This document shows, piece by piece, positions 2,472 to 48,840 of a DNA stretch of 64,000 bases. Source of the stretch: Brevundimonas sp. Root608 (GTDB lineage: Bacteria > Pseudomonadota > Alphaproteobacteria > Caulobacterales > Caulobacteraceae); contig NZ_LMGT01000006.1 in NCBI RefSeq assembly GCF_001427825.1, positions 124,001-188,000 on the forward strand. The letters are read 5' to 3'. Each line of letters starts with the position of its first letter. Position 1 is the stretch's first letter. The notes beneath the pieces are model-generated. The model saw only the letters and a program-made list of their open reading frames with translations. It did not search any database and was not told the origin of the DNA. A program made the translations under genes and the position numbers.

Positions 2472-3842
2472 ATGCCCCCCCACCTCGTCGCCACATCCCC
2501 GACGCCTCCCGGCCAGCGCATCGCCGTCGTCGGTTCGGGCATCTCGGGCCTGTCCTGCGCCTGGCTCCTGTCGCAGTCGCACGACGTGACCCTGTTCGAG
2601 GCGGACAGCCGGCTGGGCGGTCACTCCCATACCGTCGACGCCCCCTCGCCCAGAGAACCGGTCGCCGTCGATACCGGCTTCATCGTCTACAACGAGGCCA
2701 ACTATCCCAATCTGACGGCCCTGTTCGAACATCTGAAGGTGCCGACCAAGCCGGCCATGATGTCCTTCGCCGTCTCGATCGACGACGGGGCCTTCGAATA
2801 TTGCAGCCAGGGCATCGGCGCCCTGTTCGCCCAGAAGCGCAACTACGCCAGCCCCAGATTCTGGCGCATGATCGGCGACGTGCTGCGCTTCCAGAAACAG
2901 GCCCCGCGCGACCTGCCCGCGCTCGAGAAGTCGGGCGAAACCCTCGACGCCTACCTGACCCGCGGCGGCTACGGCACCCTGTTCCGTGAGGCCCATCTGC
3001 TGCCCCAGGCCGCCGCCATCTGGTCGTGCACCATGGGGCAGATGGCCGGCTATCCGGCGGCCTCCTTCGTGCGGTTCTACATGAACCACAACCTGCTCAA
3101 GGTGGACCTGAAGCCGACCTGGCGCACCGTGGACGGCGGCAGCCGGTCCTATGTCTCCCGTCTGGTCGAGGCCTTCCGCGGCCGGGTCGTCACGGACGCC
3201 GGGATCACCGGCGTCCTGCGCGGTCTCGACGGCGCGGCCCTGCGCTTCGCCGACGGCCGGATCGAGCGCTTCGACGCCGTCGTCCTGGCCACCCATTCCG
3301 ATCAGGCCCTGGCGCTCCTGGAGTCCTCCTCGGCCGAGGACCGGCGCCTGCTGGGCGCCATCGAATACCGGCCCAACAGGGTGATCCTGCACCGGGACAC
3401 GGCGTTGATGCCCAAACGGCGCAAGGCCTGGGCGGCCTGGACCCACCTCGGCTATTCCGACCGCGCGGGCGAAGGCGGCGTCACCTACTGGATGAACGAA
3501 CTTCAGAGCCTGCCCGGCCCGCCCCTGTTCGTCAGCCTCAATCCCGCCAAGGCCCCCGACCCCGAACTCGTGATCGGCGAATGGGACTACGAACACCCCG
3601 TCTTCGACGCCGCCGCCGTCGCCGCCCAGTCGAAACTGTGGAGCCTCCAGGGCCGCCGCAATGTCTGGTTCGCGGGCGCCTGGTTCGGTTCGGGCTTCCA
3701 CGAGGACGGCCTGCAGGCCGGTCTGGCGGTGGCCGAACAGCTGGGCGGCGTCCGCCGTCCATGGACCGTGGCTCACGAGAGCGGCCGCATCCATGTGCAC
3801 GATCCGTCCGGCGCCCCGGACCGGCTGACCGAGGCGGCGTGA
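2472..3842 (+). CDS. FAD/NAD(P)-binding amine-oxidase-like flavoprotein
   Basis: The protein has 456 residues. The dinucleotide-binding GSGISG is at 21-26, followed by an acidic FEADSRLGGHS region. The C-terminal WFAGAWFGSGFHEDG closes the FAD site. Members next to CFA-like and DUF1365 genes are thought to oxidise or desaturate lipid acyl chains; Rhodobacter UfaD is the experimentally studied example as I recall it. The start at 2472 follows GGAG at a normal distance. Its stop overlaps the GTG of the DUF1365 gene (GTGA), so the two are probably translationally coupled. The specific reaction here is inferred from context. Confidence 0.85.
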   Translation: MPPHLVATSPTPPGQRIAVVGSGISGLSCAWLLSQSHDVTLFEADSRLGGHSHTVDAPSPREPVAVDTGFIVYNEANYPNLTALFEHLKVPTKPAMMSFAVSIDDGAFEYCSQGIGALFAQKRNYASPRFWRMIGDVLRFQKQAPRDLPALEKSGETLDAYLTRGGYGTLFREAHLLPQAAAIWSCTMGQMAGYPAASFVRFYMNHNLLKVDLKPTWRTVDGGSRSYVSRLVEAFRGRVVTDAGITGVLRGLDGAALRFADGRIERFDAVVLATHSDQALALLESSSAEDRRLLGAIEYRPNRVILHRDTALMPKRRKAWAAWTHLGYSDRAGEGGVTYWMNELQSLPGPPLFVSLNPAKAPDPELVIGEWDYEHPVFDAAAVAAQSKLWSLQGRRNVWFAGAWFGSGFHEDGLQAGLAVAEQLGGVRRPWTVAHESGRIHVHDPSGAPDRLTEAA

Positions 3843-4861
3843 CCCTCGCCCATCCCCACGCCCCGTCATCCTCGGGCTTGACCCGAGGATCAGACGATCC
3901 GACCCTCGGTTTCATGGGCCGAAGTCGGGATCAGCGGATCACCACGGCCGGTCTTGGCCGCCCTTCGTCCGATCCTCGGGTCAAGCCCGAGGATGACGGA
4001 AAGGGGGGAGCCGGCCTGTCCTCCGCCCTCTACGTCGGCGAGGTCGTGCACCAGCGCACCCGCACCTTTGACCATCGCCTGCGCTACCGTCTCTGGATGG
4101 TGCTCGCCGACCTCGACGAGCTGGACGGACTGCAGGACCGCCTGCGCCTGCTCCGCCGCCGGTTCGGCCCGATCACCCTCAGGACCGCCGACCATGGCGA
4201 CCGCTCCGGTCGGCCGCTGCGCCTCCAGATCGAGGCTCATCTCGCCGCGGCGGGCATCGACATCGCCGGCGGCCCGATCCGCCTGCTGACCATGCCGCGC
4301 ATTCTCGGCTACGGCTTCAACCCGATCAGCGTCTTCTTCTGCCACACCCCCGACGGCGCCCTCGCCGCCCTGCTGTACGAAGTCACCAACACCTTCCACG
4401 AGCGCCACAGCTATCTGGTGGCGGTTCCGTCTCCTCCCCCCAGGGGGGTGGAGGAAGAAGCGGCGGAGCCGCTTCGACGACCGGACCATGCGGAGCATGG
4501 TGGAGGGGGCGCTCCCGCACTGATCCGCCAGTCCGTCGAAAAGCGGTTCTTCGTCTCTCCCTTCATGGACCGGGACCTGACCTACGACTTCACCGTCCGT
4601 CCGCCGGGAGAAGCCGTCTCCGTCGTGGTCGCCGTCCGTCGCGGCGACACGCCCATCCTGACCGCCAGCTTCGCCGGCCTCCGTCGCCCCCTGACCGACG
4701 GCCAGCTGCTGCGAGCCTTCGTCACCCACCCCTTCCTGACCTGGAAGGTCACCTGGGGCATCCACTGGGAGGCGCTGACGATGATGCTCAAGGGCGCCCG
4801 ATACCGGGTCCGCGGCGCGCCGCCGGGCCAACCGGTGACCCATGGGTCCGTCCGATTCTGA
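3839..4861 (+). CDS. DUF1365 protein carrying two repeat-element insertions
   Basis: The conserved DUF1365 core runs from SSALYVGEVVHQRTR (about residue 60) through PRILGYGFNPISVFF, LLYEVTNTFHERHSY and KRFFVSPFMDRDLTYDF to the end. I chose GTG at 3839: it overlaps the upstream stop and has GAGG 4 nt ahead. ATG at 3914 is the alternative but has no ribosome site. Two things are odd. Residues about 9-54 are encoded by a 137-bp inverted-repeat element. A second, different palindromic element interrupts the protein between YLVAVP and IRQSVEKR, adding roughly 25-30 residues the family lacks. The frame is open throughout. Function is unknown; the family co-occurs with lipid-modifying CFA-like and FAD genes. 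Confidence 0.85.
   Translation: MTLAHPHAPSSSGLTRGSDDPTLGFMGRSRDQRITTAGLGRPSSDPRVKPEDDGKGGAGLSSALYVGEVVHQRTRTFDHRLRYRLWMVLADLDELDGLQDRLRLLRRRFGPITLRTADHGDRSGRPLRLQIEAHLAAAGIDIAGGPIRLLTMPRILGYGFNPISVFFCHTPDGALAALLYEVTNTFHERHSYLVAVPSPPPRGVEEEAAEPLRRPDHAEHGGGGAPALIRQSVEKRFFVSPFMDRDLTYDFTVRPPGEAVSVVVAVRRGDTPILTASFAGLRRPLTDGQLLRAFVTHPFLTWKVTWGIHWEALTMMLKGARYRVRGAPPGQPVTHGSVRF
3863..3999. repeat. 137-bp paired inverted-repeat (REP-like) element, copy 1
   Basis: Two perfect 29-bp arms face each other: 3863-3891 and 3971-3999. Each arm holds an inner hairpin, CCTCGGGCTTGACCCGAGG. The 79-bp middle is unique among the copies seen here. The element lies in the 5' coding part of the DUF1365 gene. A copy with the same arm sequence family is at 48705-48840, and a related pair with different arms is at 41935-42071. 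Confidence 0.85.
4431..4516. repeat. Multi-hairpin palindromic element inserted in frame in the DUF1365 gene
   Basis: It starts with a CTCCTCCCCCC / GGGGGGTGGAG foldback. Two perfect hairpins with the same GGA loop follow: GAAGCGGC-GGA-GCCGCTTC (4457-4475) and ACCATGC-GGA-GCATGGT (4485-4501). The GGAGGGGGCGCTC end can pair with the first arm. It is translated within the host gene without a stop. A shortened relative of the first hairpin is in the ccrM leader at 62581-62607. Confidence 0.75.
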
Positions 4862-48689: not shown

Positions 48690-48704
48690 GCGAACACCCT
48701 CCAT

Positions 48705-48840
48705 CCGTCACCCTCGGGCTTGTCCCGAGGGCCCATTTGTCCGGGGCAGGAGAGATGGGCGTGGGACAAAGCGAATCGTTTCACCGGCGACGCCGGAGAA
48801 TGCTGACCAATGGGTCCTCGGGACAAGCCCGAGATGACGG
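48705..48840. repeat. 136-bp paired inverted-repeat (REP-like) element, copy 2
   Basis: Left arm 48705-48737 contains CCTCGGGCTTGTCCCGAGG. The right arm near 48809-48840 is its inverted copy, with a few differences. The arms belong to the same family as those of copy 1 at 3863-3999. It separates recN from bamD and may form terminator-like hairpins. Confidence 0.8.

Follow-up and report, generated by a model that had tools for sequence, protein, structure and literature searches.

A DUF1365 gene of Brevundimonas sp. Root608 (genome G000), situated in the 64,000-nucleotide stretch of DNA analysed here (the window), carries a block of palindromic sequence in the middle of its reading frame, and raises the question of where such a block comes from and how a conserved protein gene accommodates it. 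The original prediction held that the block is an in-frame palindromic element comparable to those of Rickettsia, and that it may be a mobile element tuned to be tolerated inside proteins. Here, we describe the structure of the block, its relatives across the genus, the state of the same site in orthologous genes, and the occurrence of related repeats within other reading frames.

Results

The palindromic block and its host gene

The window gene matches Pfam family PF07103 (DUF1365) with E = 4.7e-71, and its translation from 3839 to 4861 contains no internal stops, the block included, in agreement with the claim that the block lies in frame within a conserved gene. Translation most likely starts at the GTG at 3839, which overlaps the upstream stop as GTGA, an arrangement shared with the majority of DUF1365 orthologues examined. 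Named relatives retrieved with the DUF1365 protein belong mostly to Brevundimonas. The features are as follows.

2472 to 3842, plus strand: FAD-dependent oxidoreductase-like gene, taken from the list of open reading frames and annotated from sequence only; its stop overlaps the DUF1365 start
3839 to 4861, plus strand: DUF1365 gene, GTG start, 340 aa, placed by the Pfam match, the stop-free translation and the GTGA overlap
4431 to 4510, plus strand: three-hairpin palindromic element, in frame, encoding with its flanks SPPPRGVEEEAAEPLRRPDHAEHGGGGAPALI
4432 to 4455, plus strand: hairpin 1, TCCTCCCCCC / GGGG-T-GGAGGA, 10 bp with one bulge and a 3-nt loop, in both RNA and DNA folds
4457 to 4475, plus strand: hairpin 2, GAAGCGGC-GGA-GCCGCTTC, a perfect 8-bp stem with the loop GGA
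4485 to 4501, plus strand: hairpin 3, ACCATGC-GGA-GCATGGT, a perfect 7-bp stem with the loop GGA

The limits of the element, approximately 4431-4510, were set by alignment to family members, and the coordinates first proposed (4431-4516) were essentially right; the three foldbacks then described, two of them with perfect stems and a GGA loop, are the hairpins listed above. Hairpin 3 and the trailing GGAGGGGGC together form the diagnostic 3' hairpin of the family. The fold of the block beats 200 of 200 dinucleotide shuffles both as RNA (z = -2.7) and as DNA (z = -4.0). An Rfam scan of the region returned two sub-threshold microRNA matches alone, which were judged to be chance.

The block belongs to a dispersed repeat family

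The block belongs to a REP-like palindromic repeat family that is scattered through the genus, with most copies intergenic. Of the 131 congeneric genomes, 75 contain relatives of the 90-bp block at E <= 1e-3, several of these relatives being close to full length; the best relatives elsewhere in the genus are 75-87% identical to the window element, and one dispersed copy is homologous across the entire 90 bp (E = 5e-20). The diagnostic 3' hairpin, searched for as GGGACC-N4..20-GGTGGAGGGG, is present in 128 of the 131 genomes at 0-94 copies each, against approximately none for the reversed pattern used as control. Among 387 genomes sampled evenly across the class, 19 contain it. It is abundant in this genus, in a second genus of the same family and in a small number of additional genera; several of the other single hits appear to be chance matches. 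Hairpin 3 is conserved as a structure: across 24 distinct copies 97.6% of cells are paired, all four variable pairs are altered on both sides, and the covariation score was reached by 0 of 500 shuffles. At least two copies occur together in 23 of 71 blocks in G033 and in 9 of 47 in G106, and most of the listed pairs have opposite orientation. The nearest full-length copy (in G108) was considered as possibly lying in a DUF1365 remnant, an idea that was dropped because the copy lies between genes and the part that aligns with DUF1365 is nothing but the insert.

These observations bear on an alternative in which the block has no repeat or mobile origin, a flexible loop having simply grown longer or hairpins having arisen by chance in a GC-rich gene. 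The turn does tolerate small length changes even in orthologues that lack the element, but the 90-bp homology to a dispersed copy, the match between the DUF1365 insert of a second species (G119) and the genus-wide two-hairpin repeat, and the fold z-scores all stand against such an origin, which the dispersed copies refute. The repeat interpretation could also have failed had the block occurred nowhere else in its genome. G000 has a single full-length copy plus about five shorter or partial ones, and the family is genus-wide, so the interpretation survives, with the single full-length copy in G000 counted against our main reading.

Movement, as the term mobile element supposed, is implied by the occupied and empty sites described below, and is drawn from these; a mobilising enzyme was not found. 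A RAYT-type Y1 transposase (Y1_Tnp) is absent from G000 and was found in 4 of 131 genomes, and it was rejected as the mobiliser on these grounds. The GTAG tag is absent from the element consensus, and the CGTC tag does not lie at the element ends, adjoining instead the middle hairpin on the minus strand. We found no account of the family in Brevundimonas in a literature search that left most subscription journals outside its reach.

Filled, empty and decayed sites in DUF1365 orthologues

In alignments, the spacing between YLVAVP and (I/V)RQ(S/T)VEK is about 7 residues in most orthologues and 32 in the window protein. The YLVAVP and IRQSVEKR segments are therefore normally close together, as had been proposed, and the objection that all orthologues might carry an equally long loop falls away. 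Long loops at this turn measure 11-32 aa, every one in frame, and are clearly longer than usual in six species (window 32, G098 22, G117 22, G087 22, G119 21 and G090 14), in all of which the insert is stop-free and keeps the frame. The window insert is of the three-hairpin form; the insert of G119, a distant lineage, is a textbook, near-consensus two-hairpin copy (CCTCCCCCTTTGGGGGAGGGGGACCGCGAAGCGGTGGAGGGGG); those of G098 and G117 are variant two-hairpin members; and those of G087 and G090 look like decayed remnants.

Occupied sites recur in lineages outside any single clade. In trees of the DUF1365 flanks, with the insert left out, forcing G000, G098 and G117 together cost 50 log units (AU test, p = 4.8e-6) and forcing the six occupied species together cost 153 log units (p = 7.9e-5), so that one clade is rejected in both cases. 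This leaves two histories, repeated insertion at the site or the exchange of short tracts among species. The inserts of G000 and of G098/G117 share bases that are missing from empty alleles, TCTCC before the insert and CCCGCACTGATCCGCCAG after it, and this shared flanking sequence favours a common origin for these inserts. Of the occupied lineages, G119/G090 makes the strongest case for a separate insertion. No target-site duplication at the DUF1365 site was defensible.

A single old insertion, with filled and empty alleles swapped between species by homologous recombination and with further losses and conversion between repeat subtypes, has to be weighed against several independent insertions, and we place its chances at somewhat under even. 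The flanks common to G000 and G098/G117 speak for it, as does the HMG-CoA lyase insert described below, which is near-identical in two species and missing in the sister of one. Against it, G119 lies in a distant lineage and carries an almost consensus two-hairpin copy, and the flank gene trees reject one clade, a test that transfer of very short tracts would evade. Recombination and loss could likewise have produced the patchy distribution, a point that counts against our main reading.

In-frame copies within other conserved genes

Copies from G000, G119, G098, G033 and G106 were classed by codon usage on either side. A strict flank-scoring scan missed copies whose insert also holds other repeat sequence, and a scan that skips 90 nt on each side of the copy was added. 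Because classification relied on a home-made codon score rather than a gene caller, the counts are approximate: among some 200 copy blocks in the five genomes, the majority are intergenic and about 5-6% lie in frame within conserved genes, about a dozen cases together, the systematic intragenic count being one of in-frame copies. Besides DUF1365, the following genes contain in-frame copies.

HMG-CoA lyase: in-frame copy in G098 and G106
Pyruvate dehydrogenase (PDH) E1-beta: in-frame copy in G098
PDH E2: in-frame copy in G098
Two-lipoyl 2-oxoacid dehydrogenase E2: in-frame copy in G119, and in a similar G106 gene at another site
RsmE: in-frame head-to-head pair in G098
Lhr-type helicase: in-frame copy in G119
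Terminase-like gene: in-frame copy in G119
A further gene: in-frame copy in G106

Pfam confirmed the identities of five host genes, and the HMG-CoA lyase and RsmE inserts appear as unaligned gaps in alignments to PDB entries. HMG-CoA lyase provides the cleanest empty site. A 48-nt in-frame insert, nearly identical in G098 and G106, is missing from the sister species G117 (96% identical to G098) and from the other orthologues read; filled and empty sites are 48 nt apart, with no clear target-site duplication.

Several further observations were made in these genomes. The neighbouring PDH E1-beta and E2 genes of G098 (G098:C9, L174/L175 and L176) both contain in-frame palindromic inserts, in interdomain linkers. 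G033 has 94 hairpin copies with zero intragenic in-frame cases detected, unlike G098, G106 and G119. In G000, a terminase-like gene (L139, G000:C4, about 150379) contains a seemingly in-frame repeat-derived insert (AARFPSPSWGGTARPQAEPGWGQKG...LRADIPPHKGEGEG), and a copy of the element lies at the end of the gene that precedes it.

A second palindromic repeat in the N-terminal leader

The window gene contains a further repeat, unrelated to the three-hairpin element, at its start; like the GTG start at 3839, it is absent from the original prediction.

About 3864 to 3998, plus strand: CGTC-type head-to-head dimer, CGTC-ATCCTCGGGCTTGACCCGAGGAT ... ATCCTCGGGTCAAGCCCGAGGAT-GACG, in frame, in the N-terminal leader of DUF1365

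Its exact inverted copies lie at 3871-3887 and 3975-3991, with 0.03 expected by chance. The leader, from the start codon to the conserved SALYVG, is usually 2-13 residues long, and at 10 of the 48 loci with a placeable upstream stop it reaches 55-77 residues (counted to LY). These long leaders are built from several different palindromic repeat types, and all ten are in frame with the overlapping start; some share ancestry, so they are not ten independent events. The CGTC-type dimer is also in frame in the G103 DUF1365 leader. The frame is thus kept at both repeat-bearing sites of the gene. An internal start could bypass N-terminal repeats, a caution raised previously (PMC3733652); retention of the frame argues against an internal start that spares the window leader repeat.

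The DUF1365 leader of G012 contains an apparently decayed CGTC-type dimer, and a third repeat type (PHPSRxASHLLPxGGK peptide) extends the leader in frame at L084 and L081 (G106 and G051). Elsewhere in the window, a second CGTC-type dimer copy (a CTCGGGCTTGTCCCGAG pair) lies at 48704-48840, within which the pair related to that of the leader lies at 48713-48833.

The insert in the protein and in the transcript

An AlphaFold2 model of a 281-aa query has a mean pLDDT of 78, and the sole segment with pLDDT below 50 is the insert, residues 141-164, between strands 130-136 and 170-175. The natural reading of this model is that the insert would form a disordered surface linker. The alignment-invariant residues are all present in the window protein, by definition. 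A Foldseek comparison of the DUF1365 model with the PDB gave zero matches at E <= 0.001.

Two alternatives would make the added peptide incidental or absent. In known cases, ribosomal bypassing can be promoted by strong hairpins within a coding region, and ribosomes might skip the block, or the block might be removed from the mRNA, leaving a protein without it. We consider this very improbable; the inserts are stop-free and multiples of three at two DUF1365 sites, a constraint that bypassing would not impose. The insert might also be an RNA element retained for a function in mRNA stability, attenuation or operon pausing. Its hairpins are stable, their pairing is conserved, and REPs are often transcribed and possibly act as RNA (PMC3733652), but the element is absent at the DUF1365 site from most species with the gene, and three-hairpin, two-hairpin and decayed forms all occur there, so structure is not conserved at the site. 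An RNA function is unlikely to be what keeps the insert.

Open frames in the repeat family

Of 233 copies, 127 (54%) are open in all six frames, compared with 54 of 233 segments of adjacent DNA and 22% of shuffles. Sense insertions have the GGACC motif in a common frame (GEGDREAVEG-like) in 6 of 7 cases, and antisense insertions in another (PSTASRSPSP-like) in 5 of 6; these frames were read by eye, in small numbers and from cases not picked blind. The excess of open frames is compatible with adaptation to coding sequence, and may also arise from GC-rich hairpins without selection. The suggestion that the element is tuned to be tolerated goes beyond the evidence, retaining the six-frame-open excess (54% against 22-23% in controls) and the small-number frame bias as its basis. 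The stronger proposal, that Brevundimonas palindromic elements are adapted to spread through coding sequence, with both strands mostly stop-free, the hydrophilic frames (GEGDREAVEG in sense, PSTASRSPSP in antisense) preferred and the same turn hit repeatedly, is one we regard as doubtful; if true, this free-living genus would have a protein-coding repeat system like that of Rickettsia, together with a putative mobiliser.

Discussion

We assign a probability of about 0.87 to the explanation that a dispersed REP/MITE-like element entered a turn of the DUF1365 protein and is read through as a disordered linker, frame-breaking insertions having been purged. The element would have been inserted, by a putative mobilising activity, between two beta strands, in a turn that is probably exposed. 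The frame stays open because of the length and composition of the element, and ribosomes therefore most likely read through the insert, which would add about 25 residues as a disordered linker, presumably neutral for the protein. Purifying selection would purge insertions that break frames or strike structured parts, and subsequent turnover may occur via recombination between copies or alleles.

Rickettsia has raised the question of whether palindromic repeats can supply raw material for new protein segments, and Brevundimonas offers a tractable free-living system in which to address it, since close relatives provide naturally occurring alleles of one site with the insert present, absent or decayed, together with a second in-frame repeat at the gene start. 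For annotators, the peptides PPPLGEGDREAVEG, PSTASRSPSP and DPRVKPEDD in such proteins indicate repeat-derived inserts.

Among known systems, Rickettsia palindromic elements occur both between genes and in frame in conserved protein genes, whose products are apparently functional (PMC2229807). The family described here resembles them in the size of its palindromic repeats and in occurring both in intergenic DNA and in frame within conserved genes, and the parallel drawn in the original prediction holds because other members lie in frame within HMG-CoA lyase, PDH subunits, RsmE and a helicase. The likeness is one of behaviour alone, and we claim no membership. The Brevundimonas repeats are very GC-rich, belong to a free-living genus, form two or three hairpins where the Rickettsia elements form a single long stem, and lie within genes in only a small fraction of cases. 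A free-living host is less unexpected than had been supposed, since REPs within genes of several free-living bacteria were published in 2013, among them distinct REPs at nearly the same position of recB in two Xanthomonas species (PMC3733652). The CGTC-tagged REPs of Alphaproteobacteria are likewise short palindromes, found as monomers or dimers, mostly intergenic, without a dedicated transposase, and in some cases intragenic in free-living species (PMC3733652). The N-terminal repeat at 3864-3998 fits this type, whereas the three-hairpin element differs in its two or three hairpins, its GGACC..GGT-GGAGGGG 3' unit and the lack of a terminal CGTC tag. The methyltransferase-associated intergenic repeats (CIR) of Caulobacter and Brucella are also dispersed, hairpin-forming repeats of the same order, but contain GANTC, and are reported to carry stops in every frame and to be absent from genes (PMC2229807); none of our 233 copies contains GANTC, and 54% are open in six frames. 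Enterobacterial MITEs of the ERIC/RU type are small repeats that can be fused in frame to reading frames, and have terminal inverted repeats and target duplications (PMC2229807), neither of which was identified for the window family. In-frame palindromic repeats are thus already known from Rickettsia and several free-living bacteria; Brevundimonas adds a well-documented family, in which the DUF1365 case is unusually complete in having filled, empty and decayed sites for comparison.
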